A stretch of DNA of 50,496 nt, from the NCBI GenBank assembly GCA_020832465.1, contig JAFIER010000036.1, forward strand, positions 1 to 50,496, in the 5' to 3' direction. A program made the translations under genes and the position numbers. Below the pieces are notes generated by a model. It made no database searches. It was not told the DNA's origin and was given only the letters and a program-made list of their open reading frames with translations. This document shows, piece after piece, positions 19,301 through 39,470 of this stretch; position 1 is the first letter of the stretch; each line of letters starts with the position of its first letter. Source of the stretch: Bernardetiaceae bacterium (GTDB taxonomy: Bacteria; Bacteroidota; Bacteroidia; Cytophagales; Bernardetiaceae).

Positions 19301-19418
19301 GTAGCAGTACTTAAGCACGATGCTAATTTTTTTTTGAGGTATCATCAATCACTACAGGGCATGTTCGTCAAAAATAGGCTATATTCATAAAAGCCTTAGA
19401 AATACCATAAAGGGGGGG

Positions 19419-19565
19419 GACGACAACTTTGCTAAATTAGCTCAGAAATAACATTTCTGCCAGAAATGTTATTTCTATAATTTACTAACTGTCAAAAACT
19501 AACAGTTTTCGAAAAACTGTTAGTTTTGAATCTTCCTAAGTCGATTTACCAACTTGACGTACACC
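19419..19565. mobile_element. Family A composite MITE-like element
   Basis: A 147-bp near-copy of 11860-12009 in the same orientation: ACGACAACTTTGCTAAATTA start, core-2 palindrome (19444-19476), core-1 palindrome (19495-19527) and CTTGACGTACACC end. The left terminus is altered by a G-run. An imperfect 11-bp direct repeat flanks it: CCATAAAGGGG (19405-19415) and CCCTAAAGGGG (19564-19574). It occupies the gap between the permease and lipoprotein genes. Confidence 0.78.
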
Positions 19566-20230: not shown

Positions 20231-20300
20231 GCTACGTCAAGTTGGTCAATCAACTTAGATAATTTCAGAAATAACATTTCTTTGGGAAATGTTATTTCTG
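20231..20300. repeat. Partial family A element (reversed)
   Basis: Begins with the right end of family A read inwards (CTACGTCAAGTTGGT), then a core-2 palindrome with 16-bp arms (20266-20300). The distal half is missing. It lies in the nadC leader. Confidence 0.65.
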
Positions 20301-21241: not shown

Positions 21242-23317
21242 ATGCGATTTATTTTCTGCTACTGCATTTTGATATTTTTTCCTGTTTTCGCTACTTTAGC
21301 GCAAGATAGGGACGCTATTATCAAGATTTTAGTGGAGAGTCTGGATACTGTAAGTAGTGATATAGAGCGTGTAGATATACTTAATGAATTGCGATATTAT
21401 CATACGCGCAATGAGTTTAACACCGCTTTAGATTACGCTAATCAGGCTTTAGTGCTTGCACAAAAAATTCAATATATTAAGGGCGAAGCCGCCGCTTACG
21501 ACGGATTAGGTGCTGTATATGAGCATTTAGGCGATTATGGCAGGGCGTTATCCTATAAAATAGAATCGCTAAAAGTATATGAATCGAATAACAATGTAAA
21601 GGGCATAGCACAAACACATAACAATATAGGTGTATTTTATTACAGACGTGAGGACTTTGAAAAATCGCTTTATCACTATGAAAAAGCCTTAGAAGTAGCC
21701 CAAGCTCTCAACGATTCTGTTGATATGGCAATATATTGGCTCAATATAGGCGAAGTACATCAAGAACTCGGCAACTTCGACCGCGCCATTGAATACGAAC
21801 TCAAAACCTTAGAAATATCTGAAAAATTTGGTATAAAAGACAATATTGCGTATGCTAAGGGCATTATTGGAAAAGTAAGGGAGGCGCAAGGTAGGCTTAT
21901 GCAAGCTGAAAAATATCAAATGGAGGCACTCAATCTTTTTGCAGAGCTCGATGATGATATGGGCGTTTTGGAATACGCATTAAGTCTCTCCGGTGTATAT
22001 TTAAAACAAAAAAATTTAGTAAAAGCAGAGCAGTATGCCCGCCAAAGTCTCGATATTGCTATTGATTTTGGTGCCAAAGATTGGATACAAAAATCTTACT
22101 TGCGTTTGGCCGAAATTAGTGAAGCGCAAGATAAAATAAGCGAGGCGTACAACTATTTTAAAAAATATGATGAAATAAAGGGGGAACTTCTCAATGAAAC
22201 CGCTTTGCTCAAAATTGCACAAGCACAAGCACTATACGAGTCTGAAAAAAGTCAAGCTCAAATTGCAGTATTGACAAAAGAAAAAGAAATAGACCAGATT
22301 AAAATCTACGGACTTGGCGCTATACTGCTCGTGATGTTGATACTTATTTTTGTGATATGGAGAGGAAGCAAACTCCGAAAAGAAGCTAATACGAAATTAA
22401 AACTTCAAAACGACAAAATCAATCTGCAAAAAGAAGAAATTGCCACACAGCATAGCAATATCGAAGAACGAAACAAAGCCTTAGAAAAGCAAAATATAAT
22501 CAATCAAATTCAAAGAAAAGAACTCGAGAAAAAAAATGAAGATATTACAGCAAGTATAGCTTATGCCAAACGCATTCAAGATGCTATTTTGCCTTCATTG
22601 ATAAATATTCAAAGGGCAATTCCAAATTCTTTTATCTTTTTTAAGCCTCGTGATATCGTATCTGGAGATTTTTATTGGTTTCATGCAAATGCTGATGGTA
22701 CGCTCATTATAGCCGCTGCAGATTGTACTGGACACGGCGTACCCGGTGCTTTTATGTCTATGATTGCCAATGATTTACTTAATAATATTATTGTACAAGA
22801 CCAATATACTAAGCCCGCTGAAATTCTTGAAAAATTACACGCTGATATTAGAAAAGTTTTAAAACAAGATGAAACCAGAAACCAGGACGGACTCGATATC
22901 GCTATTTGTGCTATTGCAGCGGATAAAAAAAGTGTTATTTTTGCTGGGGCAAAAAATCCACTGATTTTATTCGAGCAAAATCCTGATAAAGGACTTATAA
23001 AACGTAAAATTAAAGCAGATAGAAAATCTATTGGAGGTGAAAATAAAAATCTAAGTTTGAACTTTAAAAATCACTACATTACAGTAGAATACCCTACCTT
23101 TTTTTATATTTTTTCTGACGGTTTTCAAGATCAATTTGGCGGTCCTCAGAACCGTAAATATATGAGCAAGCATTTTTATACACTTTTGGAAAGTATGCAA
23201 GCACAAAAGCCCATAGAACAGGTAAAAATCCTCGAAAACGAACTCCAAGATTGGATGATGGGAACAGCCTATAAACAAATTGATGACATGCTTATCATTG
23301 GTTTTAAATTGGATTAA
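21242..23317 (+). CDS. TPR-TM-SpoIIE phosphatase
   Basis: A 691-residue paralogue of the proteins at 382 and 33910 but without a GAF domain. Order: signal peptide (about 1-20), TPR repeats (about 60-310), membrane helix (about 354-374), coiled coil (about 375-440) and SpoIIE domain (about 450-691). Metal-site motifs are intact: VSGDFYWF, ADCTGHGVPGAFMSM, FSDGFQDQFGG and a final DDMLIIGF. Predicted topology is periplasmic TPRs and cytoplasmic phosphatase. It starts 17 bp after nadC, which suggests shared transcription but no obvious functional link. It converges on the barrel gene pair, with a terminator at 23432-23463. Confidence 0.9.
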   Translation: MRFIFCYCILIFFPVFATLAQDRDAIIKILVESLDTVSSDIERVDILNELRYYHTRNEFNTALDYANQALVLAQKIQYIKGEAAAYDGLGAVYEHLGDYGRALSYKIESLKVYESNNNVKGIAQTHNNIGVFYYRREDFEKSLYHYEKALEVAQALNDSVDMAIYWLNIGEVHQELGNFDRAIEYELKTLEISEKFGIKDNIAYAKGIIGKVREAQGRLMQAEKYQMEALNLFAELDDDMGVLEYALSLSGVYLKQKNLVKAEQYARQSLDIAIDFGAKDWIQKSYLRLAEISEAQDKISEAYNYFKKYDEIKGELLNETALLKIAQAQALYESEKSQAQIAVLTKEKEIDQIKIYGLGAILLVMLILIFVIWRGSKLRKEANTKLKLQNDKINLQKEEIATQHSNIEERNKALEKQNIINQIQRKELEKKNEDITASIAYAKRIQDAILPSLINIQRAIPNSFIFFKPRDIVSGDFYWFHANADGTLIIAAADCTGHGVPGAFMSMIANDLLNNIIVQDQYTKPAEILEKLHADIRKVLKQDETRNQDGLDIAICAIAADKKSVIFAGAKNPLILFEQNPDKGLIKRKIKADRKSIGGENKNLSLNFKNHYITVEYPTFFYIFSDGFQDQFGGPQNRKYMSKHFYTLLESMQAQKPIEQVKILENELQDWMMGTAYKQIDDMLIIGFKLD

Positions 23318-23354
23318 CAAATTACTACAAAGCAGGGCGCTCAAAAAATAGGGG

Positions 23355-23413
23355 TGTACGACAATTTTGCTAAATTAGCACCGAAATAACATTTCTGTCA
23401 GAAATGTTATTTC
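23355..23413. repeat. Partial family A element
   Basis: Perfect left terminus TGTACGACAATTTTGCTAAA followed by a core-2 palindrome (23383-23413, 14-bp arms, loop GTC-type). The right half with core 1 is absent. It lies between the SpoIIE stop and the terminator. Confidence 0.7.
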
Positions 23414-23431
23414 TGGCTGTTAAATTACAAA

Positions 23432-23590: not shown

Positions 23591-24460
23591 TCATTTCTTT
23601 TTTCCAAAATTAGCGATACCAATCGGGTGCGAAAGCTGCAAAGATATAGACGAACCTCGGGTGCGCACATCTAAGGTGTTCAAAGGCAAAGCGGGCTGTC
23701 CGAAATCCTCCTCATTCATATCTGTAAATGTATAGCGTGTATCCATAAGCGGACGCAAACCATAACGAAAAGCCAAACGCAAACCCCAAGTTTCATGATT
23801 TTTCCTCGCATGGCGAAGCTGAAAACCCACTGAGGCTTCTAACATCGGAGTCCAACTATGAAGCACCTCATTACGAGTCTCGATAGCATAAGAATGCCTG
23901 CCTATTGATATATATGTAGAGCTAACATTATTCTTGATGTATTTGGCATGAACTATTCCTAAGAGCAAACCTGCAGTAAGTTGAAAACCGCGCTTTTTAT
24001 GTCCATCTTCTAATATTTCACTATCCTTGTACCAAAGAATGCGCTCCGCGCCCAAGGCAAAATAATCTAAATAGCCCGCAGTTCGCCTTCTGTTATCGTA
24101 GGCGGTAATAATCAACGAAGGGTCATTAAATTCAAACTGGTAACGATAGCCGTAATCATAAGAGGGGGTAAAGTAACGTAAGGTAAAGTTCCAAGTATTA
24201 TTCAAGCGTAAGCCCACATCTAAGCCTATTCTAAAATTAACCCAAGGGTAATACACATTGTTGTAAGTCTCGGTAAGTACGTCCCAATATTGGGATTCAG
24301 GAAGAAAACGTTCCTCAAAAGTCCATAAGCCCATATCGGCGTATATAATAGGCTTTATAAATAATTTATAGCTATTTTGGCTATTTTCTTGGGATAGTGC
24401 AGGTACACTTGCCCATATTATCACTAAAAGACTAATAAAGGTAAATCTATAAAACTTCAT
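23591..24460 (-). CDS. Outer-membrane-barrel-like protein, tandem paralogue 2
   Basis: A 289-residue protein of unknown function. It has a signal peptide (about 1-23, ending ALSQ) and alternating aromatic strands typical of a small outer membrane barrel, for example WNFTLRYFTPSYDYGYRYQFEF and WGLRLAFRYGLRP. It shares its frame with the neighbour that ends 2 bp upstream: a FIKP-type start, a WNF(T/S)L(R/G)Y strand, a (F/Y)GL/GINL(A/I)(F/Y)R(Y/Q)GL strand and RGSSISLQLSHPI at the end. It is clearly a tandem duplicate. No enzymatic motif was seen. It ends at the terminator 23432-23463. Confidence 0.65.
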   Translation of the reverse strand: MKFYRFTFISLLVIIWASVPALSQENSQNSYKLFIKPIIYADMGLWTFEERFLPESQYWDVLTETYNNVYYPWVNFRIGLDVGLRLNNTWNFTLRYFTPSYDYGYRYQFEFNDPSLIITAYDNRRRTAGYLDYFALGAERILWYKDSEILEDGHKKRGFQLTAGLLLGIVHAKYIKNNVSSTYISIGRHSYAIETRNEVLHSWTPMLEASVGFQLRHARKNHETWGLRLAFRYGLRPLMDTRYTFTDMNEEDFGQPALPLNTLDVRTRGSSISLQLSHPIGIANFGKKK

Positions 24461-24462
24461 AC

Positions 24463-25302
24463 TTATTTAGATTTGGAAGGTAAACGCATCAAATAAATAG
24501 GACAAGTAAGCCGAATGGCAAGAGATGAGCCCCGACTGAAAGACTGCACTTCATAATGTGTTATATTATCACGATTGCTGTAAGTTGCTATATATTGAAA
24601 ATAATGTTGGCGAAAACGATTAAGCCCTTGGCGATAAATGAGGTTAATCCCGAAGGTCTCTCTATTTTTACGATTTGCAAACTGAAAACCAAAGCCCACT
24701 TCAAAAGAAGTGCCTAAGGTACGAAGACGGTGGCTATGAATATCGTAGTTTAATATAATAGATGAAAGTGGTGGTGGTGAATAAAAATTAGATTCACCAC
24801 GTAAAACCATGGATTCTGGTTCGTTAAAAAGCTCACCACTCAGCATAAAACCCGCCGAGCCAACGAGCTTAAAATGTCGCCCCCTGTATAGTTTTTTACT
24901 AAAAAAGGCATATTCTGCGTTCACACTCAAATGCTGCATATAACGACCTTGACGAGGTCCGCCAGAACTCATTTTATCGTTACTGCGTGTAGCGAAACCG
25001 TTATACTGCGTAAGCCCCCGATGATAGCCAAGGCTAAACTTCCATTTTTCGTCTAAGGCTACGCCTACTTGCAAGGCGTATTGATAAGCGGGGAATGCAA
25101 TCTCGAAAATCTCATGACTATCTGGCGGTAAAGCAATCATTTGCGTTTCCCAAAAGCAAAGCTCAAAAGGTGATAAAGCTGGGCGAATAAATAAAACTGG
25201 ACTCTTTTTGCGCACCTCCTCGCCCTGTTCCGATTGTCCATGCACCGCACTTATAAAACTACTACATAGCAGTAAGAACAAAAAGAAAAGTTTTTGTTTC
25301 AT
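24463..25302 (-). CDS. Outer-membrane-barrel-like protein, tandem paralogue 1
   Basis: A 279-residue protein with the start at ATG 25302 (MKQKLFFLFLLLC), which begins a good signal peptide ending AVHGQ; the frame extends 7 codons further. The mature part is rich in Tyr/Phe/Arg and looks like a beta barrel. It aligns by eye along its length with the 23591 protein (FIRPALSP, WKFSLGYHRGL, FGINLIYRQGL, SRGSSLAIRLTCPI). The two genes are only 2 bp apart and on the same strand. Probably a Bacteroidota-specific envelope protein; no function is suggested by motifs. Confidence 0.65.
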   Translation of the reverse strand: MKQKLFFLFLLLCSSFISAVHGQSEQGEEVRKKSPVLFIRPALSPFELCFWETQMIALPPDSHEIFEIAFPAYQYALQVGVALDEKWKFSLGYHRGLTQYNGFATRSNDKMSSGGPRQGRYMQHLSVNAEYAFFSKKLYRGRHFKLVGSAGFMLSGELFNEPESMVLRGESNFYSPPPLSSIILNYDIHSHRLRTLGTSFEVGFGFQFANRKNRETFGINLIYRQGLNRFRQHYFQYIATYSNRDNITHYEVQSFSRGSSLAIRLTCPIYLMRLPSKSK

Positions 25303-25407
25303 GATATAAAATAGGTTTAACATGACTTAGTAAGCCAGTAGCACTTGTGCAATGCTACTGGCTTAAAAATAAATAGATTAGTTACAACAACCTGGCAGCT
25401 TGATAAT

Positions 25408-25649: not shown

Positions 25650-28600
25650 TTAATCTTTCCATTTCCAAACTCCCAAGTCAGCAGCGCGATTGATTGTGTA
25701 AAAATAGGTATCAAAAAAGCCGATACTTAGGAGTGGCATTTCGTCTTTGATTTCACTTATATATTCGCCCTTAGCATTCCAGAGTATGATTCTTGCATCT
25801 TCTCCTACACTGATAATATGTGTCTGCTCTGGCGAGAAGGCAGCATCATTGACTCTTCCTCTATGCTCACTCAGGACTGCCAAAAGGTCGCCATCAAATG
25901 TCCAGAGTTTGAGGCTGTGGTCATGTGAGAGGCTCACAAATTGTTGCTCATCTTTTTTGAAAATAAGTTTTTGAATTTTATCACGATGCGCATCGAGCGT
26001 TTTGAGTAGCTTACCTTCTAAGCTAAAAAAGCGAATTTTTCCATCATCGCAAGCCGTGATATATTGCGACATATCACGGCGAAAATGCACATCAGCAATC
26101 CGACCGCCATGAGGCGCACTCTCCGAAAGCAATCTGCCTTCCATATCATAAATACGCAATACACTATCCGATTCAGTACAAAAAATCTTGACTTTATCAG
26201 CCGTAAAACCGATATGATATGCCATTTTTTGGGGTTTGATATGCATAATCATACCGCCCTTCAAATCATTGAGCATAAGATTATTTTCTACATCAAGGCT
26301 CAGGAATCTATCCCCGTCAGGCAAAATGGCAAGGCTGCGATTAGCTACTTTATGGCCACGAAAATCTGTAAGCAGGTTGCCCTCTGCAGTCCATACTCTA
26401 ATGCTGTTATCAGTCGCTGCGGTAAAAATGTAGTTACCGTCGGGTGAAATGGCTATAGTCTGAACAGTTTCTGCGTGTTTGAACCTAAAAAGTTCGTTAC
26501 TATTTTCAGCGTTAAAAAATAAGACTTCTTTGCCCTGCGTAAGCCAAATTCCTTTGGTTTTGTGGTGTACCCAATCTTTGGGCAAACTGGGCAGATTTAC
26601 TAACTTTTGGCGTAAGCCACCGAGTGCGTAGAGTCTGGCAGTCCAATCTTTGGAGGCTATCAGGAGTCTGTCGCTACCGTAAAAAGCGGCATAAGTAATG
26701 CGGTTGTTGTGGTCTTCGAAGGCGGTAATTATATCTCCATTGCGCTGGCGGAGCTCGGCGGGTGCGTCCCATTTTTCAAAAAAGAGTAAATAAGCACGGG
26801 AGTCGGGTCTCCATACAGCTTGTTGCGGGCGCTGTGCATGCTGGTGGACGTGCAACAATTCCCCTTGTTTATCAAAAATGCGTGTTTTGTTATCCGTTGA
26901 GAGGCATATTACATGCTCACCATCAGGTGCGAAGGCTGCATAATAGGTAGTATTTCTGCCCAGGGTAGCGATGCGCTCCCCTTTCAGATTCCAAAGTTGG
27001 GCTTGACTCTCTTCACCAAAAGTAAGGATATACTGACCATTGGGCGCAAATACTGCGGCTTCTATATTTTCATTATGCTTTAAATGCAATAGCAAATTTC
27101 CTTCGCTATCAAAAACGTGCGCAAAATTTTGGTTTGTAGTCAGGATTTTACTTCCGTTAGGGGCATACTGTGGCGGAATTTTTCCGCTATGAATTTTTTC
27201 TAAATCTTTGACAAAGTCTCCATTTTTTGTACGCAGTCGTATTTTTCCACTATCCGAAACGCATAACAAACGCTGCCCCTCGAGCGTAGCATATCTCAAT
27301 CGGAATCGCTCTTTCACTTGCTTTGTGAGGTTGCCTTTGCTATCCCAAAGAGCGAGCATTCCGTCTCCACTGGCGGTGAGTATTTGCTCGCTATCTTTGG
27401 AAAAAATAGCTGTTATCAAATTCTCTTCGTGCAAACGCAGCGTTTTTTGAAGATTACCCAAGCTATCAAAAAGGGCAGCAAAGGGTTTATCACCTCTTGT
27501 AATAATTTTTTTGCCATTAGGCGCAAACTCGGCGTAGCGCACGGGCGCATCATGGGCTTTTAGTTTTTGATAAAGATGCGTAGGCGGACGCTGAAGTATC
27601 CATTTTGTGGGTATTAGCATCTCGTGTTGCGGGTAAGCAGCAAAAAGAGAATCAGCTTCTGCTGCTACGGCTTGATGCTTATTTTGCAGGGCTTGATTGC
27701 TTATTTTTAGAAATGCTTTACTGACTAACAAGTCCTCCGCTTCATTTTTTTGTTGCCATATCCAAACCAAAAACACAATGGATATAGCAGCGAGCAAAAG
27801 CAATACAAAACGTGCATTACGGATTCTAAAATAATGCTGAATTTTCTTTTTAGATTTTATTTTTTTGTCTATTTTTTCTACGGGTTTGGATTTATCTATC
27901 CAATTCTTTGTTTCTTTGGGTAGCTGGGGCAGTATTTTTTTGTACTTATCTATGCGTTCCCAATCAGCGAGGCTTAGAAGGTGCTCTGGATTTTGCGCTT
28001 GAATCCGCATTTGATTTTGCAGATTATGCAACACCCTTTGTATCGGAAACACAGATTGATAAAATGCCTTTTGAATAATTGGTGCAAAGCGTGCATGCGC
28101 TAATGCCGTAGCTGCTTTGCCCGTGCGCACGAGCAGCCCTAAGCGACAAAGCAAATCGAGGTGTGCCTCAATAGATTTGCTATATGTCTCTTCATATCGT
28201 TCGAGGAGTTCACTACGCTGGCGTAGCCGCAAAAAACCTTCAGTATCTTCTGGATAGATATGAAAATAGAGTATATCCAAAAAGAGTCCGCTCTCGTAAT
28301 GCTTAGGTTCGTTTTCTTTGAGGTATCTGAAGCAATGGCGCATAAAATCCTCGAGTTGTAAACCTTTTTGCTGTGCCTCTCTGAAATCATTGGGGTTTAG
28401 TTGTTTTGGATTTTCGGCGAGTTGTTGCATATAAGCCATAGCAAACTGCAAAGCAAAACCTCGCTCTTCGGCAATAATCTCACGGCTAAGGCTTTTTGCC
28501 ATAGTCTGGATAAGCTCTTCAGGAATATCGAGGTTGTATTTTTCATCTAATACAAGATGATTGCTAAGATTTTGCAAATAAGCTGCTATTTCTTCTTCTG

Positions 28601-29879
28601 AAATGGCATAAATATCGTGTTTTTCAAACAGTACGCCCTGCTCGGCTAAGCTTTGTACAAGCGGGTGGCTGTCTGTATTGCGCACCGAGAGTAAGATTCG
28701 CCCTTTGATGGGTTGCTCTTGCTCAAAGGTAAAAATTTCATTGAGCGCATCGGCAAAGGACTGCCATGCGACTGCATGTTGTGCATTTTTAAAAAAAGTT
28801 TCGCATTGGTCTATGCAAATAAACAGTGGTTTTTGATAACGCTGTTCGAGGGCGTGCCAAGCCTGATACCAACTCTGCTGCTCCTTTTCTAATACCGTTT
28901 GTAATAGCTCAAGTGGACTTTGTGCGAGCAGGCTACGCAAAATGCGTACTTCGCCTACGCTTCTGAGTCGGGGCACTAATGCAGCCTCTATAAAAGAGGT
29001 TTTTCCTACAGCTGTGCCACCTGCAAGCAGCTGTACTGCTGGTGCATGTGCCTGTGTGCAGCCACGCCAAAGGCGCAATAGCAAATCCTCACGCCCTACG
29101 AAAAAAGCAGCTTCCACTTCGCTCAAATGCCGTGCACCCATGATATGAGTCTCGGGCAGGTGCTCATAAATAGCTGCTTTGAGCGGTGGCACTTGCTCGC
29201 TATCCATTGCTATGGAGTCCGTATTTGTGCCGTTACTCCAAAGCGGGAGCAGAAAAGGTGCATTTTTTTGTTCTTGTTGGGCATAAAGCTGTGAAGGCAA
29301 AGCGTCCATGATGTCTTGCACTTCGGGCGTATGGAGCAGGTGCTTTTTTTTGCTTTCGGCAGTGAGCTTGAGGTCTTGCACTTGGGAGAGTGCTTCTTTG
29401 TAGGCTTCTTGTAGGCTTTTTTCTGTAAGTAGTACTTGATAAAATCGTCCTATAAATCTCGCATTAGCCTCATCCTCGAGGGCAGCGGAGGTGTGCAAAA
29501 CGGGTATGTTATGCCTTTCGGCTAATTTTTTGGCAGTATGCTGCTCTGCCGAGCCGCTCAAAAAAAGTAGCTCAAGTGCTGGCATTTGGTTGATATAATC
29601 GTCTGGAAGTTTTTCACTTATTTTTTCCCAGTCTCTCATATATCCACTTACGTGTAGCAATGCAATGCGCGATTTATTGGCTTCCCAAAAATCAATAAAA
29701 TCAGATGCACTGAGCGAAATGAGCCAGTCTTCTTTGTGTAAATCTGGTGGTAGAGCCTCAAATTGCCGTCTCAAAGCCTCTTTTTCGACATCGGTGCGTC
29801 GTCGGTCTTTGCGGGTGGAGGCTTCTACGAAGAGCCATATCATACCTTTGGTATCGTTGTTTTGCATAACAAATTCCAT
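25650..29879 (-). CDS. Degenerate-CHAT / nSTAND NTPase / TM / WD40 protein
   Basis: A giant signalling ATPase, 1409 residues from ATG 29879 (MEFVMQNNDTKG); a further 16 codons upstream are Lys/Ile-rich. Order: CHAT caspase-like domain (about 15-170), nSTAND P-loop NTPase (FFVGRE about 259; Walker A GGTAVGKT 287-294; Walker B LFICIDQCE about 351), helical region, one membrane helix (about 690-708) after a basic KKK stretch, then about 15 WD40-type repeats to the end, enough for two propellers. The CHAT catalytic positions are lost: the usual SGHG reads SGYM and NAC reads SGS. Positive-inside reading puts the WD40 part in the periplasm. It is the last gene of the sigma/anti-sigma/zincin operon. 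Confidence 0.85.
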   Translation of the reverse strand: MEFVMQNNDTKGMIWLFVEASTRKDRRRTDVEKEALRRQFEALPPDLHKEDWLISLSASDFIDFWEANKSRIALLHVSGYMRDWEKISEKLPDDYINQMPALELLFLSGSAEQHTAKKLAERHNIPVLHTSAALEDEANARFIGRFYQVLLTEKSLQEAYKEALSQVQDLKLTAESKKKHLLHTPEVQDIMDALPSQLYAQQEQKNAPFLLPLWSNGTNTDSIAMDSEQVPPLKAAIYEHLPETHIMGARHLSEVEAAFFVGREDLLLRLWRGCTQAHAPAVQLLAGGTAVGKTSFIEAALVPRLRSVGEVRILRSLLAQSPLELLQTVLEKEQQSWYQAWHALEQRYQKPLFICIDQCETFFKNAQHAVAWQSFADALNEIFTFEQEQPIKGRILLSVRNTDSHPLVQSLAEQGVLFEKHDIYAISEEEIAAYLQNLSNHLVLDEKYNLDIPEELIQTMAKSLSREIIAEERGFALQFAMAYMQQLAENPKQLNPNDFREAQQKGLQLEDFMRHCFRYLKENEPKHYESGLFLDILYFHIYPEDTEGFLRLRQRSELLERYEETYSKSIEAHLDLLCRLGLLVRTGKAATALAHARFAPIIQKAFYQSVFPIQRVLHNLQNQMRIQAQNPEHLLSLADWERIDKYKKILPQLPKETKNWIDKSKPVEKIDKKIKSKKKIQHYFRIRNARFVLLLLAAISIVFLVWIWQQKNEAEDLLVSKAFLKISNQALQNKHQAVAAEADSLFAAYPQHEMLIPTKWILQRPPTHLYQKLKAHDAPVRYAEFAPNGKKIITRGDKPFAALFDSLGNLQKTLRLHEENLITAIFSKDSEQILTASGDGMLALWDSKGNLTKQVKERFRLRYATLEGQRLLCVSDSGKIRLRTKNGDFVKDLEKIHSGKIPPQYAPNGSKILTTNQNFAHVFDSEGNLLLHLKHNENIEAAVFAPNGQYILTFGEESQAQLWNLKGERIATLGRNTTYYAAFAPDGEHVICLSTDNKTRIFDKQGELLHVHQHAQRPQQAVWRPDSRAYLLFFEKWDAPAELRQRNGDIITAFEDHNNRITYAAFYGSDRLLIASKDWTARLYALGGLRQKLVNLPSLPKDWVHHKTKGIWLTQGKEVLFFNAENSNELFRFKHAETVQTIAISPDGNYIFTAATDNSIRVWTAEGNLLTDFRGHKVANRSLAILPDGDRFLSLDVENNLMLNDLKGGMIMHIKPQKMAYHIGFTADKVKIFCTESDSVLRIYDMEGRLLSESAPHGGRIADVHFRRDMSQYITACDDGKIRFFSLEGKLLKTLDAHRDKIQKLIFKKDEQQFVSLSHDHSLKLWTFDGDLLAVLSEHRGRVNDAAFSPEQTHIISVGEDARIILWNAKGEYISEIKDEMPLLSIGFFDTYFYTINRAADLGVWKWKD

Positions 29880-29988
29880 CTTATAAGCCTTTTTTTTTAT
29901 TAGGCTAAAAGTACGAATTTTTATCATGACTTAGTAACGTTTGCATTTTTTATTTTACAAAACAGTCAAGATTATTGCGCTTCGGCGT

Positions 29989-31587
29989 TTACTTGGGAAA
30001 ATAAAACCAAAGCAATACTTTATTTTCTACGATCAGAAAAGCAAGATTATGTTTTTGATTTTCTGCACTATAGACTTTCATTTTTCCGTCTATGGTCGGA
30101 ACTTCCAGGCTCGCTTCTACGCCAAAATGAGCTTGTAGTAACTTGGGGTTGTAATTGCTGTATCGTGTAATCGGCAACTCCGCCTGATTTAATACTAACT
30201 GCCTATCATTACTAAAATTAAGGGAAAAACGCACTCCCGCCGATTCAGGTGCGCTGATGCTATACAAACGCCTACTATCTTGCTGCTGCCTTTTGTAGGT
30301 TACTTGTGTATCACCGATATGCCAAGTTTGCCCTGCCTTTACTTCGGGTAGGCTTACGGGATAGTTGCAATTGCTTGTGGGAATAGAAGGCGGATTTTCA
30401 CCATTTACAATCGCTAAGTTTATGTTTGCAGCAAGGTGAGGAGTTTGCTTAAATTTTGCTATTGCTTTTGCATGGTGTCCGCCTTTTGCAAGGTCAATAC
30501 CACCAATTACATTATGGAAATGTTGTGCTTGCGTAGCATTTATTTGTAGTATTTTATTTTTGTATTTGTTGTAATCCGCTTTATCCACGTACAAGTAAGC
30601 AATCACAGCCTTGAGTTTTAAGGCAGCGAGGTTATTAGTGTCTATTTTTAGTGCTTTATCGGCGTGCTCGTGAGCAATTTGAATATGCTCTACGAAAGCA
30701 GCGCTATTATATCCTCCTAAATCTCGTGGTGCTCCGCTAAGTACTGGCGAAAGCGATACGCTTGCCAAGTAGCCATCAAGTGGGTAAGACCATTTACTAA
30801 TATCTTCACGTGCGTGGCACAAAGCAATATTGAAAGCGGCTAAGGACTGATTGACTTGAAATTCAACAGTATTAAAATTTTCTGATAATGCCTTAAAAAT
30901 TTCATATACGTGGGTATAAGCCTCTATGGGTCTGCTGCGCTGCTGCTCTGCCCATATCAAAAGCGTACTGGCATAATAAAATAAATATTGCGATTTGAAA
31001 AGCATATTGAGGGCATCATCTAAGGCACGGCTGCGCTGCTTCACACAGAGATGGTCTTCGGCACAGTCTGCTGGCGTATTGTAATATGTACTAACGGTTT
31101 GCAGAAGCGCTTGTCCAAACTCGGGGCTAAGTTGTACATTATTAAAGTAACAAAGTAAGGCACTATAAAAATCTGCTTGCATCTCTGGGATGAGTAGCTG
31201 GTTGCCATTATTTTGAGGTGGGATAAACTGCGCCGTGCGTTGCTTAAATGCTATTGGAGCTTTGAATTGGAGGTAATGCCCTAATTCGTGCCCAATCAAA
31301 TAATAGAGTACTTGCTTTAGCTCACGGCTATTTTGTGTATAGTTTTTGAGAATAAATCCTTCGTCTAATAGGATTAGGTTACTTGTATGATCGTATGCAG
31401 AGGGTGTTCCATTGATACGAGGTCTTAATATAAGTTGGGGCTTAATTCCGTTAATTTTTAATTTATTCCATTGTGTGTTATAAATTTGCTGTGCCTGTAT
31501 CATCAAGGCAGGGTTTTGCGCATAGCTCACCTGCCAAGTTGCCATAAGAACAAGAAGCATGCCCCACACTGTATTTTTACTCATCAT
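29989..31587 (-). CDS. Secreted M48-like zincin with helical repeats
   Basis: A 532-residue protein with a signal peptide (about 1-23, ending SYAQ). The gluzincin pattern is complete: H100-E-L-G-H104 followed by E135-M-Q-A-D139, the HExxH...ExxAD spacing of M48 peptidases, in the helix context YLIGHELGHYLQF. After that come helical, TPR-like repeats (about 170-380) and a C-terminal beta-rich domain (about 400-532). M48-like proteins often degrade or process envelope proteins. Its start overlaps the end of the anti-sigma-like gene by 11 bp (31577-31587), so translation is probably coupled. The natural reading is a periplasmic protease or sensor serving this operon. Confidence 0.75.
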   Translation of the reverse strand: MMSKNTVWGMLLVLMATWQVSYAQNPALMIQAQQIYNTQWNKLKINGIKPQLILRPRINGTPSAYDHTSNLILLDEGFILKNYTQNSRELKQVLYYLIGHELGHYLQFKAPIAFKQRTAQFIPPQNNGNQLLIPEMQADFYSALLCYFNNVQLSPEFGQALLQTVSTYYNTPADCAEDHLCVKQRSRALDDALNMLFKSQYLFYYASTLLIWAEQQRSRPIEAYTHVYEIFKALSENFNTVEFQVNQSLAAFNIALCHAREDISKWSYPLDGYLASVSLSPVLSGAPRDLGGYNSAAFVEHIQIAHEHADKALKIDTNNLAALKLKAVIAYLYVDKADYNKYKNKILQINATQAQHFHNVIGGIDLAKGGHHAKAIAKFKQTPHLAANINLAIVNGENPPSIPTSNCNYPVSLPEVKAGQTWHIGDTQVTYKRQQQDSRRLYSISAPESAGVRFSLNFSNDRQLVLNQAELPITRYSNYNPKLLQAHFGVEASLEVPTIDGKMKVYSAENQKHNLAFLIVENKVLLWFYFPK

Positions 31588-32461
31588 TGCGTTTTAGAGA
31601 CTTGGTATAATTCAAAAGTAAATCAGAAACGTCCCTAATTTGCTTATTTTTTGAATTATTTGCAAGTTTTTCTAAAACTTTTTCAGCCTTTTGAATTTCA
31701 GCATCAGCTTTTATACGTGCTTTTGCATGCTGTAGCTGTATTTCTTCATTTTGTTGGTATAGTTTTGTTTCCTCTATTTTTTCAAAATAAGGAAGTGCAT
31801 TGAGCGGTTCTCCGAGTTTTAAGAAAGCATAGCTCATCAAATATTTTGCTTTGATATGCCTTCCATCTTCAAAATGGGCAGAATCTCTCCATATTGGTAC
31901 GGCATCGGGATATTTATCAGGTTGGCTCAGGGTATCGAGCTTACTAATTGCCTTAGCGTAATGCCCTTCTTGCAGTAGTTTTTTTACTTCCAACCATAAA
32001 GGAATTTCACTTTGAGAAGCATTACTCGTATAACCTCTGGTCTCGTCAGCCGTTTTTTCAAGGTCTTTAAAAAACTGTTCATCAAAGTTCAAATTATACT
32101 CGATATTAGGTTTTTGAGCTAACTCGGGTTGCACTTGTTTTTGTGTATTCCATAGAAGGAGTGCAATTAAAGGTAGTGAAGCTGCGATACTAATTTTTAA
32201 CCATAGGTTTATAGTTCGTCTTTTTTTTTCTTGTGCTTCAGCTTCTTTTTCTTGTGCAATTTCTTTTTTTTGCGCTTCGATAAGGGGTGCGAAAGCAGCT
32301 GCTTTCTTTTTTCTTATGAAATGCAAAGCGTCCTCTGCCATTTGAAAATCTACAAAGTTCTGTGCAAACTCTTGATCTTCTTTTAGGCGTTTTTCAAAGG
32401 CAGCTTTTTGACTGCCTTTGAGTTTATTGTCTCTGTAATCTTCGAATTGTTTCGTATTCAT
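31577..32461 (-). CDS. Membrane anti-sigma-factor-like protein with periplasmic TPRs
   Basis: A 294-residue protein. The N-terminal 60 residues (FEDYRDNKLKGSQKAAFEKR, then KEDQEFAQNF) match the Bacteroidota pattern of short anti-sigma domains (yL.g.L...e...fe..l..d.e), but without a visible zinc-binding His/Cys set. A charged coiled stretch leads to one membrane helix (about 87-103). The C-terminal half is TPR-like (about 150-290) and would be periplasmic. It lies 6 bp after the sigma factor stop and overlaps the zincin gene by 11 bp. The role as anti-sigma is inferred from position, size and topology. Confidence 0.72.
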   Translation of the reverse strand: MNTKQFEDYRDNKLKGSQKAAFEKRLKEDQEFAQNFVDFQMAEDALHFIRKKKAAAFAPLIEAQKKEIAQEKEAEAQEKKRRTINLWLKISIAASLPLIALLLWNTQKQVQPELAQKPNIEYNLNFDEQFFKDLEKTADETRGYTSNASQSEIPLWLEVKKLLQEGHYAKAISKLDTLSQPDKYPDAVPIWRDSAHFEDGRHIKAKYLMSYAFLKLGEPLNALPYFEKIEETKLYQQNEEIQLQHAKARIKADAEIQKAEKVLEKLANNSKNKQIRDVSDLLLNYTKSLKRNDE

Positions 32462-32467
32462 TTTTTT

Positions 32468-33046
32468 TTACTTGAGATATTTTTGAATTTTTTTTAAATA
32501 ATCGTTAGCTAAGCTTGGATACTCTTTCTTGAGGGTTGTTGCTATTTTAGTACGTATGTTTTGAATTTGAGTTTTTACATTATTAGTAGTGGTTTCGCAA
32601 TAATCTGCAATATCTTTTTGTTTTTCGTTTCGTGCGAGAAATACACAAATTTTTTGTTGCTGCGCTGTAAGCGTTCCCATAAGTATGCGTTCAAACTCTT
32701 GTATATCAGCTTGATAATGAGTTTGTACGGTATTTTCCAATTCATTATAAAATTCTCCGTGCATTGTCATTTTGCGATTTTCTCGTTTGCAATAATCTAT
32801 TGTTCGTCGTTGCGTAATTGTTTTTATCCAGGCAGCTTGATTTTTTACATTTTCAAAACGATTGCTTGTAATTTCCTCCCAGAGGATTAAATACACCTCT
32901 TGCTGTATATCGCTGATTAGCGTATCAGCTTCTGGTATATTCCTATATAGCTTTTGCTTTATAGTATGTTCAATCAAATTGAAATACTTTTTTGTAAGTT
33001 GGTTAAACTTCTGGATTTCAATTTTTTCCTCGTTCGCATCTGTCAT
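32468..33046 (-). CDS. ECF-type RNA polymerase sigma factor
   Basis: A 192-residue sigma-70 family factor. Region 2 is seen at about 25-100, with DIQQEVYLILWEEI and the promoter-melting helix AAWIKTITQRRTIDYCKRENR. Region 4 is at about 125-185, with the helix-turn-helix NEKQKDIADYCETTTNNVKTQIQNIRTKI. There is no regulatory extension. It is the first gene of a four-gene minus-strand operon; the next start is 6 bp downstream. It likely drives its own operon, but the promoter could not be identified with confidence: the leader holds only TACCTTTTG, which is one base too long. Confidence 0.88.
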   Translation of the reverse strand: MTDANEEKIEIQKFNQLTKKYFNLIEHTIKQKLYRNIPEADTLISDIQQEVYLILWEEITSNRFENVKNQAAWIKTITQRRTIDYCKRENRKMTMHGEFYNELENTVQTHYQADIQEFERILMGTLTAQQQKICVFLARNEKQKDIADYCETTTNNVKTQIQNIRTKIATTLKKEYPSLANDYLKKIQKYLK

Positions 33047-33909: not shown

Positions 33910-36900
33910 TTAGACCCTTAATCCAATGACTGAAATATCATCTCTTTGTTCAGCATTTTTCTGATGTTCGTTAAGTATATATTCTAGATATTTTTTCTGT
34001 TCTGCAAAGTTTTTTTCTTTACAAGCTAATAGTTGATTTTTAAAATTTGTACTTCCAATCTTTTCTCTATCAGGGTTATTTTGGTCTTGATAGCCATCAG
34101 AATAGAGGTAGAAAAGCGTATTTTCTGGCAGTATTAGTCTGTGATTGGTAAACTCTTTTTTCAGTTTTCCTCCTCCTAGATATTGTCTATCACCTTTGAG
34201 GTCAAATATTTGATTATCTATGATATAAGACATTTTTGACTTTGCTCCTGTAAAAATAAGTTCAACAGTATTGTCTGTTTTGTTTTTCTTGAAGACGCAA
34301 AGAGAGATATCCATGCCATCGTTATTTTTCTTTTGTTCTTGTTTTAATATTTTACGAATACCATTATGCATGCTTTTTAAGATGCTTGCTGGGTCGTTAT
34401 AATTTTTTTTGATATTGACGGCTTCATGTAAAATTGTACTACCGAGCATGCTCATAAATGCGCCTGGTACGCCATGTCCGGTACAATCTGCTAAGCTAAA
34501 CACCGCCATATCTTCAGAGATTTGAGAGAACCAGTAGAAGTCTCCTGATACAATATCTTTGGGTTTGAAAATAACAAATAAATCGCTAAAATAATTTCTC
34601 AACTCAGATTCTTCTGGCATTACAACAGACTGTATATGGGAAGCGTACTGAATACTCTTATTGAACTGTTCTGTTGTTCTTTTGAGTTTTTTATATGTAC
34701 TTTCAATAGTAACTTTTTGTTTGTTGATATAACGAAAAGCATCTGCTTTTGCGAGTGCATTAGCTGAGTAATTAGCAATATGATGCAAAATACTCAGGTG
34801 TTGCTCTTGATAAGCATTGATTTGAAAACTCTGTACCGTAATTACGCCCACTCTTTTACCTTCGTCGTTCAATGGCATATAAATAATAGATTTAATGCTT
34901 GATTTTCCTACTTTTACATCATAGTCCTCAATATATTTTTGATATTCGGCGGGGAAATTATTGATAAGGATTTCTTTTTGGTTATTAAAGCAAAAGGAGG
35001 ATAGCAAATTAGGATTGTTTAAATCATCTTGATGGAACGCTAATTCTTTATCTTGTTCGATATAGCCTTCAAAATCTAAACAATTTTGCTGTTCGTTGTA
35101 AAGGCCTATACCAAAGCCTTCCACTTTCATGAGAGCATTGACCTGCACATTAACGATATGAATAATTTCTTTTACATCTAAGCTTGTATTGATAGCCTTT
35201 CCAATTTCGCTCAGAAGCCCTAAGCTTTGAAATGATTTTTCAACAGCAAGTTTTTGCATTTCTAAATTTTCGTTCAAAACAGTCAATTCTTCTTGATGCT
35301 GATGTAGCTCTTCGTTTGCTTGATTTAAAAAAATATTTTTTTCGGCAATTAAATGTTGTTGCTTTTGAATTTCTTCATTTTGTGCAGCCAGCATTTTATT
35401 TGCTTTTTGTTTTTGTTTCAAACCAATTGCAACCAGAATTAAAATAATCAAAAAAGTGGCAATAATACCTATATACGTATATTGTACACGTTTTTGGGCT
35501 TCTATTTCAGATTTTAGTGCTAACTCTTTATTTTGGTTTTCTATTTGCATATTTTTAGCTTCTAATTGTGTTTTTTGAGCTAAATTATAGAGACTATCTT
35601 GTTTTCTTTTGTCTTTTTCTTTTTGTGCTAAAGCTAAAAAACGGTCCACTTCATTTTGTTTCTTTATCAGCTCGAGCTCTTGTAATTTTTTTGTAGCCTC
35701 TATTTGAATAAGTTGATTATTTTTCTCTAATAAATCTAGTTCTTTTGCTTTTCGCTCGAGTTCGATTGTTGATTTTAAGTTAGAAATAGCTTTAGATTTT
35801 TCTAACGAAAAGAGTGAATCTTGAATGTTTCTTACATACGCAAAATATTCGAGTGCATTTCTATAATCTTCCTTGCTATTATAGTTCATAAAAAGTATCT
35901 CTGCTAGCCCACTAGCCTCCAAGGCTGCTTTAATTTCTTGGGCTATAGCAAGTCCTTTTTCAGCATACGCTATGCTTGTATCGTAGTCTCCTTGTTTATA
36001 ATGCACACTTGCTATGCCATAATAAGAATAAACCTGCCCAAACTTATCACCTAATTCTTTTTTTATTTTTATACTTTTTTGATGATAATCTAATGCTAAA
36101 TCATAATTGCCGAAGTCGTCATAAAGTTTGCCTATGTTATTCAAACTTATTGCCACTGCTGCTTTATCTCCTAACTCCTCGTTTAGTTTCAAAACTTTTT
36201 TCATATCCTCTAATACTAAGTTCGTATTACCTTGCATATAATTAGCATTGATTATATTATTCAAAACCGCCGCTATATCTTTCTTATTGTTTAAACCTTC
36301 TAATAGTTTTAAACTTTTTTTGTACTCTTCTAATGATAGTGTTAAATCTCCTTGCTGAAAGTAAATATTTCCTATCTCGAGTAAGGACATAGCTATGCCA
36401 TAGTTATTGCCTATATTTTCGTTTATTCTTAAACTTTTTTGACAATACTCTAAGGCGACTGGATAGTTAGCTTGATAATAATAAAGTTTACCTATAGTAA
36501 GTAAACTTTGAGCAACCCCCTCTTTATTATCCAGCTTCTCATGTATTTTTCTGCTTTTTTGATAGTATTCTAATGCAACTGTATAGTTACTTTGCTTGCT
36601 ATAAAGTTCTCCTATTTTTTCTAATATATTGGCTACAGACTTTGGATATTCAGCTTCTGAAAACATTGCTAAAGCCTGCTCATAATAGTTGAGTGCGCTA
36701 TCATACTTAATATTTAATGCGTAGAACTCTGCTAAGTTATACTTTACCTTTGATAGACCTCGCTTATCATTCGCTTTTTTAGCTAGATGGCTCGCATGCT
36801 CATAGATTTTTACTACGGTATCTGGTTTAGAAGAAAAATACAAACGCCCTATTTGTATCAAAGCATTAACTTTAGTTGTGTCATGTTTAGCATTTCGATA

Positions 36901-37002
36901 CATATTTTCATAGTAGCTCTGGTTTGATGTGCCTTGCGCCAAGAGCACGTCAAAGTTTGAGATAAACAAAAATAAGATAACTGAAATCAATATATTTTTC
37001 AT
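33910..37002 (-). CDS. TPR-TM-GAF-SpoIIE phosphatase
   Basis: A 1030-residue paralogue of the 382 protein, the largest of the three here. Order: signal peptide (about 1-22), TPR repeats (about 45-390, several with the 40-residue spacing of the YYxxALxYYQKSLxI type), a long coiled coil, a membrane helix (about 512-530), more coiled coil, a GAF domain (about 600-750) and a SpoIIE domain (about 790-1030). Intact motifs: VSGDFYWFS, ADCTGHGVPGAFMSM, LYSDGYQDQ and QRDDISVIGL. Predicted periplasmic sensing and cytoplasmic phosphatase output. It is the next minus-strand gene upstream of the small membrane protein and sigma operon (180 bp), so a functional link is possible but unproven. Confidence 0.92.
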   Translation of the reverse strand: MKNILISVILFLFISNFDVLLAQGTSNQSYYENMYRNAKHDTTKVNALIQIGRLYFSSKPDTVVKIYEHASHLAKKANDKRGLSKVKYNLAEFYALNIKYDSALNYYEQALAMFSEAEYPKSVANILEKIGELYSKQSNYTVALEYYQKSRKIHEKLDNKEGVAQSLLTIGKLYYYQANYPVALEYCQKSLRINENIGNNYGIAMSLLEIGNIYFQQGDLTLSLEEYKKSLKLLEGLNNKKDIAAVLNNIINANYMQGNTNLVLEDMKKVLKLNEELGDKAAVAISLNNIGKLYDDFGNYDLALDYHQKSIKIKKELGDKFGQVYSYYGIASVHYKQGDYDTSIAYAEKGLAIAQEIKAALEASGLAEILFMNYNSKEDYRNALEYFAYVRNIQDSLFSLEKSKAISNLKSTIELERKAKELDLLEKNNQLIQIEATKKLQELELIKKQNEVDRFLALAQKEKDKRKQDSLYNLAQKTQLEAKNMQIENQNKELALKSEIEAQKRVQYTYIGIIATFLIILILVAIGLKQKQKANKMLAAQNEEIQKQQHLIAEKNIFLNQANEELHQHQEELTVLNENLEMQKLAVEKSFQSLGLLSEIGKAINTSLDVKEIIHIVNVQVNALMKVEGFGIGLYNEQQNCLDFEGYIEQDKELAFHQDDLNNPNLLSSFCFNNQKEILINNFPAEYQKYIEDYDVKVGKSSIKSIIYMPLNDEGKRVGVITVQSFQINAYQEQHLSILHHIANYSANALAKADAFRYINKQKVTIESTYKKLKRTTEQFNKSIQYASHIQSVVMPEESELRNYFSDLFVIFKPKDIVSGDFYWFSQISEDMAVFSLADCTGHGVPGAFMSMLGSTILHEAVNIKKNYNDPASILKSMHNGIRKILKQEQKKNNDGMDISLCVFKKNKTDNTVELIFTGAKSKMSYIIDNQIFDLKGDRQYLGGGKLKKEFTNHRLILPENTLFYLYSDGYQDQNNPDREKIGSTNFKNQLLACKEKNFAEQKKYLEYILNEHQKNAEQRDDISVIGLRV

Positions 37003-39133: not shown

Positions 39134-39470
39134 GAAGCTGTTTGAAAAATAATGTTAAATTAAAAATCATACCATTATACATTTTTCCATAACGCAGAGG
39201 TTGCAAACCCCACAGGCTATGGAAAAATGAGCTTAGAAACAACATTTCTCAGAGACATGTTATTTCTGGCCGCCGAATGTCCAGTAGTATGATTAAAAAT
39301 ACTACCTCTTATTTTTAGCCTTCAATCAACCCCAAACTATCCCACTCCCCATCTTTTCAAGGCGAGGATTAAGGGGCGGTTGATAAAATATCTTACAAAG
39401 GCACACAAACCAATATATGGTTGTAGCTATTGTAAGAATTGATTTTATTGTGTTTTTAAGCAGCATTATT
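39134..39470. repeat. Family C element interrupted by a family B element
   Basis: Left end GAAGCTGTTTGAAAAATAAT (39134-39153) and right part (about 39300-39470: CAATCAACCCC, TCTTTTCAAGGCGAGG, GGGGCGGTTG, TGTAGCTATTGTAA) match 14473-14698. The two parts are separated by the family B copy at 39167-39292. The element is diverged compared with the other two. Confidence 0.65.
39167..39292. mobile_element. Family B MITE, 126 bp, with 7-bp target duplication
   Basis: Termini TCATAC and GTATGA, extended as TCATACCATTATACATT against AATGTCCAGTAGTATGA. Inside are a CCATAACGCAGAGG..CTATGG palindrome and a core-2 palindrome AGAAACAACATTTCTC. A perfect 7-bp direct repeat TTAAAAA flanks it (39160-39166 and 39293-39299). 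It interrupts a family C element. Confidence 0.85.

Follow-up and report, generated by a model that had tools for sequence, protein, structure and literature searches.

Organization of the four-gene operon

The minus strand of a 50,496-nucleotide stretch of DNA from a Bernardetiaceae bacterium (contig JAFIER010000036.1 of assembly GCA_020832465.1; hereafter, the window) carries four consecutive open reading frames (ORFs), whose products, in the order of the genes, are identified as a sigma factor of the extracytoplasmic function (ECF) type, a membrane anti-sigma factor, a zincin metallopeptidase and a very large CHAT-like/nSTAND1/WD40 protein, hereafter the giant (Table 1). The sigma and anti-sigma genes are separated by 6 bp, the anti-sigma and zincin genes overlap by 11 bp, and the giant follows after 61 bp, if its longest ORF is considered, or after approximately 109 bp, if translation starts at the ATG of residue 17. 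A preliminary description of the locus, made from the sequence alone, had reported this tight packing on one strand (6-bp gap, 11-bp overlap and about 110 bp), which the ORF coordinates bear out, the last figure fitting the ATG at residue 17. Its assignments of the ECF sigma factor, membrane anti-sigma factor, zincin and CHAT-like/nSTAND/WD40 giant also hold; by contrast, the TPR repeats it had assigned to the anti-sigma factor match only below the Pfam cut-off (best E-value 0.014).

Table 1. Genes, domains and motifs of the four-gene operon (positions in the window).
Feature	Position	Strand	Evidence
ECF-type sigma factor, 192 residues	32468..33046	-	TIGR02985, TIGR02937, Sigma70_r2
Single-pass membrane anti-sigma factor, probably with periplasmic TPR-like C-terminus, 294 residues	31577..32461	-	Anti-sigma profile, hhalign
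Anti-sigma hydrophobic (membrane) stretch, residues 86-104	32150..32206	-	Mean hydropathy 1.93 over 19 residues
Probably exported zincin (M48-TPR type), 532 residues	29989..31587	-	hhalign to 21 module zincins
Zincin HELGH zinc motif, residues 100-104	31276..31290	-	H100, E101 and H104 invariant in 22/22 aligned
Zincin downstream motif E135-x-x-A-D139	31171..31185	-	E135, A138 and D139 invariant in 22/22 aligned
Giant CHAT-like/nSTAND1/transmembrane/WD40 protein, 1425 residues; alternative start at residue 17 (29879)	25650..29927	-	
Degenerate CHAT domain, residues ~28-190	29358..29846	-	Alignment with 21 relatives
Giant Tyr96 at catalytic His position	29640-29642	-	Alignment with 21 relatives
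Giant Ser126 at catalytic Cys position	29550-29552	-	Alignment with 21 relatives
nSTAND1 NTPase, residues ~261-620	28068..29147	-	PF20703, 47.2 bits
P-loop GGTAVGKT, giant residues 303-310	28998-29021	-	Seen in alignment
Giant membrane stretch, residues 705-723, preceded by Lys/Arg-rich stretch	27759..27815	-	Mean hydropathy 2.63
WD40 propeller region, residues ~790-1425	25653..27560	-	PF00400, 138.8 bits

The sigma factor matches the NCBIfam models TIGR02985 (E = 2.2e-10) and TIGR02937 (E = 2.6e-8), both below the curated cut-offs, and Pfam Sigma70_r2 marginally above it (24.3 bits against 24), whereas region 4 is matched below the cut-off. A short protein that combines sigma regions 2 and 4, encoded next to a predicted membrane inhibitor, corresponds to an ECF sigma factor with its membrane anti-sigma factor. 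The latter has a single hydrophobic stretch and matches the NCBIfam model 'antisigma' below the cut-off (E = 0.0011). The zincin carries the HELGH and downstream E-x-x-A-D motifs, as expected of M48-type metallopeptidases, but is poorly recognized by the libraries (Pfam Zn_peptidase, E = 0.17; NCBIfam YpfJ, E = 0.00076), with no Pfam family matched at E ≤ 0.01; judged by eye from its N-terminus, it is probably exported, the hydropathy over 19 residues being modest (0.98). Despite these weak library matches, the identities of the zincin and anti-sigma factor are secure, because relatives of both were found.

A recurrent sigma/anti-sigma/zincin module, often with a CHAT gene

When single proteins of the operon were searched against 59 genomes, including that of the window, the zincin was found in 2, the first part of the giant in 3 and the anti-sigma factor in 5. 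Three of the loci were informative. In G054, a zincin gene is followed by genes for a sigma factor, an anti-sigma factor and a TPR-CHAT protein that looks exported from its N-terminus. In G012, the genes for the zincin, the sigma factor and the anti-sigma factor form a cluster, with a TPR-CHAT gene 1.9 kb away. In G003, which belongs to the same family as the window genome, a sigma gene, a gene for an anti-sigma factor with a TPR-like end and a gene for a CHAT-nSTAND1-transmembrane-propeller giant with intact catalytic residues are adjacent, without the zincin.

A three-row zincin profile was then used across 390 genomes of the window's order, with up to 20 kb of sequence fetched per locus. 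Among the 108 genomes with a match at E ≤ 1e-3, we used the 38 places with E ≤ 3.8e-27, including loci at contig edges (e.g., L039, 3.1 kb); the excluded matches had E-values of 6.7e-8 or worse and covered the profile only in part. The zincin family is thus represented by 38 loci in 36 of the 390 genomes. ORFs at these loci were scored with our own sigma, anti-sigma and CHAT profiles, with which weak partners may be missed or wrongly called, because they were built from few seeds. A sigma gene lies within 1.3 kb of the zincin gene in 21/38 loci, an anti-sigma gene within the same distance in 20/38 and both in 18/38, whereas a TPR-CHAT gene lies within 5 kb in 17/38. Given that one of the seeds, G012, was itself found through its anti-sigma factor, we also counted without the three profile seeds, which left 18/35 for sigma, 17/35 for anti-sigma, 15/35 for both and 15/35 for CHAT. 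By comparison, gene density across 37 loci (genome G112 left out, and the shared ancestry of loci ignored) predicts 1.0 sigma gene (2.0 with sigma counts doubled) and 0.99 CHAT genes. We prefer this estimate to a control made of 18 loci with giants (251 kb), in which our profiles detected no sigma, anti-sigma or TPR-CHAT gene, because the control samples few genomes.

The linkage differs among the eight sampled families. Sigma genes are found within 1.3 kb of the zincin gene in all loci of f10 (7/7), in most of f18 (6/8) and f12 (2/3), in 3/6 of f14, in 1/3 each of f1 and f4, in 1/7 of f3 and in the single locus of f15 not at all (0/1). The CHAT partner is present within 5 kb in five of the eight families (f10, 7/7; f12, 3/3; f14, 4/6; f4, 2/3; f3, 1/7), and 17 of the 19 CHAT ORFs at zincin loci retain both the His and Cys motif patterns. 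In one genome (G293), the sole CHAT match lies 228 bp from the zincin gene. Another (G176) encodes two zincins (L071 and L072), both of which have CHAT, sigma and anti-sigma genes no more than 4.5 kb away; two of its three CHAT matches are those near the zincins, and the one by the second zincin is a short ORF, suggestive of a split frame. The close sigma-zincin pairs are on the same strand in 10 cases and on opposite strands in 11, indicating that the linkage survives rearrangement. At 9 loci, zincin and anti-sigma genes on opposite strands are only 0-67 bp apart, with 120 bp in one further case, and are arranged tail to tail where this was read. When linkage is mapped on a tree of 44 zincins, 8 changes are required, at least 6 of which are forced by well-supported branches, compared to 15.1 with shuffled labels, implying that the linkage is partly inherited and has been lost or gained several times.

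Whereas 19 of the 22 sigma partners match the ECF model TIGR02937 at E ≤ 1e-3, few of the 22 anti-sigma factors match named models (zf-HC2, 4; RseA_N, 1). What the anti-sigma factors have in common is an N-terminal domain followed by a membrane stretch, and a Gly beyond this stretch is kept in at least 90 percent of them, in TPR and non-TPR types alike. The window anti-sigma factor is detected at E = 4.3e-8 by a profile of the 21 others (leave-one-out) and aligns with them over 101 N-terminal columns (hhalign probability 92.0). Two sigma factors from the window's family (L021, 11215-11850; L075, 3382-4002) have a hydrophobic C-terminal end, as if tail-anchored, which the window sigma factor does not have, and in L075 a propeller-SpoIIE gene adjoins a sigma gene.

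The zincins share the two metallopeptidase motifs in 37/38 loci by pattern, and among 22 of them, Peptidase_M48 is matched in 11 and TPR_2 in 15 at E ≤ 0.01. Comparison of the window zincin with 21 of its module counterparts by hhalign yielded a probability of 98.5 (E = 2.4e-15) over 351 collinear columns that take in the N-terminus, the zinc site and the TPR part, as opposed to 0.2 for an unrelated decoy profile; on the basis of this hhalign match, we take the window protein to be a divergent member of the M48-TPR family. In a search of the zincin profile against solved structures, TPR proteins scored best among the best 60 of 103 matches, with no M48 enzyme among those named, and a plasmid search with the zincin gave no match.

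The preliminary description had anticipated that gene order would be conserved in relatives. For the four-gene set of the window this is not the case, and we reject the exact operon as a conserved unit; what stands is the claimed link between a sigma factor, an anti-sigma factor and an M48-like zincin, joined in part of the order by a CHAT-type protein, as their association recurs far above the density expectation. Sigma, anti-sigma, zincin and often CHAT genes constitute a recurrent module that occurs in several arrangements. Among the matches listed in a search of titles and abstract openings of the open literature, there was no description of a sigma/anti-sigma/M48-TPR/CHAT locus. Some genomes in part of the window's family are rich in CHAT matches more generally (48 in the 4.1-Mb G002 and 23 in the 3.0-Mb G005, with 20 in the window's own genome and only 8 in G003).

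The giant carries a catalytically degenerate CHAT domain

The central part of the giant is an nSTAND1 NTPase, with a score far above the Pfam cut-off of 27.1 bits and a recognizable P-loop, and is followed by a single membrane stretch and a WD40 region. The Lys/Arg-rich stretch that precedes the membrane segment suggests that the CHAT and NTPase domains lie inside and the WD40 domain outside the membrane. The CHAT-like nature of the N-terminus is evident from alignment with the G003 giant, in which the catalytic residues are intact (30 percent over 625 residues), and a two-row profile finds the structure of a 'CHAT domain-containing protein' (PDB 8tl0, E = 3.1e-6). With the window sequence alone, no CHAT entry was found, and the Pfam CHAT model is not among the best 25 of 42 matches. 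The pseudo-protease proposed in the preliminary description is borne out: the catalytic His and Cys, both kept in 21/21 aligned CHAT-like relatives, are replaced by Tyr96 and Ser126. The predicted fold of the CHAT-nSTAND part, modelled with four sequences, is of low confidence (mean predicted local distance difference test score 60.2, predicted template modelling score 0.43), and the best 50 Foldseek matches are AAA+/STAND-type NTPases such as Cdc6/ORC, so that the model is uninformative on the CHAT part.

In the 390 genomes of the order, full-length relatives of the giant beyond the window's family were found in family f3. According to our profiles, a sigma gene adjoins the giant at two loci only, in the window and in G003, and is found at none of 18 other loci (15 giants and 3 CHAT-only relatives, some on short contigs); three further giant loci, from named genomes, likewise have no sigma gene beside them. 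We therefore reject the giant as a constant sigma partner.

Proposed mechanism and alternative explanations

Taking the computationally established genes, domains, lost catalytic residues and recurrent linkage of the zincin with sigma, anti-sigma and CHAT genes as the starting point, we tentatively favour, at somewhat short of even confidence, a protease-controlled release of the ECF sigma factor from its membrane anti-sigma factor. The anti-sigma factor would tether the sigma factor to the cytoplasmic side of the membrane, and the exported M48-TPR metalloprotease, together with a CHAT partner in five of the eight families, would sense or process an envelope cue. The zincin, with the CHAT protein where present as a second candidate protease, would then cut, or trigger the cutting of, the periplasmic part of the anti-sigma factor, thereby freeing the sigma factor. 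In the window, the place of the CHAT partner would be taken by a membrane-anchored pseudo-protease. Its dead CHAT domain and its ATP-dependent nSTAND1 switch would lie in the cytoplasm and its WD40 propeller across the membrane, and instead of working as a protease, it may serve as an adaptor or scaffold. The substrate and the signal in this scheme, like the direction of control and any assembly, are inferred, and export and topology are read from N-termini, hydropathy and charge. The adjacency of sigma, anti-sigma and giant genes in G003 is in line with this scheme.

Several observations weigh against it. The four-gene combination of the window was not seen elsewhere in the genomes surveyed, and at 11/38 zincin loci there are no partners within 8 kb. 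No CHAT gene lies within 5 kb of the zincin gene in any locus of f18 (8/8), f1 (3/3) and f15 (1/1) or in 6/7 loci of f3. In a draw of 395 genomes from the phylum, some of them of the same order, the zincin family was found in 6 genomes besides the window's own, all outside the order, with 0/6 having a partner in the approximately 6 kb on either side. The window proteins themselves are divergent: the sigma factor is matched by the leave-one-out profile at E = 0.0057 only, and the zincin is missed by hmmsearch with the profile of the 21 others; furthermore, its position in the zincin tree, which has long branches, is unsure. The density expectation takes no account of the shared ancestry of loci. 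Finally, no convincing promoter motif is shared by the regions upstream of sigma and zincin genes at four loci, a weak test. The top shared upstream pair, AT-rich and present in 5/8 stretches, was not used, its value having been reached in 9 of 200 shuffles.

The last result also counts against the strongest alternative, in which the zincin and CHAT protein are outputs rather than triggers, that is, the sigma factor would switch on envelope proteases for BepA-like quality control, whereas the anti-sigma factor would sense stress by other means. Co-location with a sigma factor gene is also common for members of its regulon, and in 11/21 close pairs the zincin and sigma genes are on opposite strands, so that the zincin gene often has its own transcription unit; moreover, the M48-plus-TPR make-up resembles that of the envelope protease BepA (PMC7950410). 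In the window, by contrast, the zincin gene overlaps the anti-sigma gene. This explanation accounts for the data nearly as well as the release model, although we consider it on the unlikely side.

It is rather improbable that the giant is a chance neighbour, in which case the gene for an ordinary CHAT-nSTAND-WD40 protein would have ended up at the downstream end of a sigma/anti-sigma/zincin operon and would be starting to decay. The absence of sigma genes beside related giants in other families, the gap of 61-109 bp to the zincin gene, wider than the others, and the loss of both catalytic residues would all be explained in this way, but the frame is intact over 1425 codons with the P-loop retained, and sigma, anti-sigma and giant genes are adjacent in the same-family genome G003.

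A role in phage defence or cell death, with the nSTAND part detecting invasion and triggering a sigma-driven or lethal output in the manner of a CRISPR-free CASP, appears highly improbable: a survey of counter-invader systems names nSTAND1 (PMC8195603), and in CASP a sigma inhibitor is cut by Csx29, a CHAT protease (PMC10028731), but there is no CRISPR-like array of direct repeats in 15000-45000, no convincing PADLOC match in the window (HEAT-ARM_XIII to the WD40 stretch, 6e-21; weak capP, 0.0018, and CARF, 0.0012) and nothing out of the ordinary among the flanking genes with Pfam matches, and the exported-looking CHAT protein and zincin of the common module, to judge by their N-termini, favour envelope over nucleic-acid sensing. 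The G003 giant likewise gave only a weak PADLOC match, to LmuB (0.00045).

Comparison with known systems

The module is best read as working like RseA/DegS or the CRISPR-associated CASP, without being a member of either. CASP, in which a CHAT protease is linked to a sigma inhibitor and an ECF sigma factor (PMC10028731), is part of the type III-E system (Cas7-11, the TPR-CHAT protein Csx29, Csx30 and CASP-sigma). The parallel with type III-E drawn in the preliminary description is sound as an analogy: in both cases a CHAT-family protein, a sigma inhibitor and an ECF sigma factor are encoded together, and the proposed logic is that of a protease-controlled sigma factor. However, the present inhibitor is membrane-anchored, the CHAT protein of the common module looks exported and is accompanied by an M48-TPR protease, and the window CHAT domain is devoid of the catalytic His and Cys. 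Nor is there an array in 15000-45000, and none of the ORFs next to the operon has the size of Cas7-11, which was not searched for elsewhere in the genome.

With the RseA/DegS-RpoE and RsiW-type systems, in which membrane anti-sigma factors undergo regulated proteolysis (PMC10028731), the module shares a single-pass anti-sigma factor, an ECF sigma factor and an envelope protease. It differs in that cleavage is proposed here and the candidate protease is an M48-TPR zincin, often linked to CHAT. Proteases of the DegS type are serine proteases. ECF sigma genes near CHAT genes are also a feature of the ECF54 group, the gene context of which includes CHAT, subtilase and carboxypeptidase genes; as outlined in that source, this context has no anti-sigma gene (PMC8999054), unlike the sigma gene here, which is adjoined by that of a membrane anti-sigma factor. 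BepA is a periplasmic M48 metalloprotease with a TPR domain (PMC7950410) and thus resembles the zincin in combining an M48-type peptidase with TPR repeats; the comparison is with its description only, which mentions no sigma linkage. The survey of conflict systems that names nSTAND1 also reports a caspase set accompanied by genes for an ECF sigma factor and a TPR protein (PMC8195603). The giant shares with such nSTAND1/EACC-type proteins an nSTAND1 NTPase within a multidomain protein, but is predicted to span the membrane, carries a pseudo-CHAT domain and is encoded beside anti-sigma and zincin genes.

More broadly, and more doubtfully, the module might represent a caspase-like/sigma partnership outside CRISPR that serves envelope signalling, with an exported TPR-CHAT protein and an M48-TPR protease controlling a membrane anti-sigma factor; in one lineage, the caspase slot would have passed to a transmembrane STAND switch that carries a dead CHAT domain and serves as an ATP-driven scaffold. 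The CHAT-sigma theme would then be older than CASP, which would be one specialized case of it. The ECF sigma-releasing proteases that are known belong mainly to the DegS/S2P types, and the link between CHAT and sigma factors comes mainly from type III-E CRISPR. Exported-looking TPR-CHAT proteins are numerous in these bacteria, and a recurrent CRISPR-free locus of CHAT, M48-TPR and sigma/anti-sigma genes would give part of them a testable role. The pseudo-CHAT STAND protein of the window, for its part, provides a natural case of a caspase-type domain retained without its catalytic residues.

Genomic context of the operon

Six of the seven flanking proteins scanned have Pfam matches, all ordinary (QRPTase, LptF/G, FtsX and TPR-SpoIIE phosphatases), and a defence-island reading of the region is unsupported. 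The window encodes three TPR-SpoIIE phosphatases, two of them with GAF domains (382-3147, 21242-23317 and 33910-37002), one of which shares its strand with the sigma gene and is encoded upstream of it. Downstream of the giant, also on the same strand, are the genes for two tandem exported-looking proteins of 289 and 286 residues (23591-24460 and 24463-25323), without Pfam or NCBIfam matches up to E = 1. A repeat is present in four copies (19413-19476, 20236-20299, 23351-23414 and 39204-39267), which share an inverted core close to AGAAATAACATTTCT ... GAAATGTTATTTCT and are perhaps terminator-like or similar to repetitive extragenic palindromic (REP) elements.

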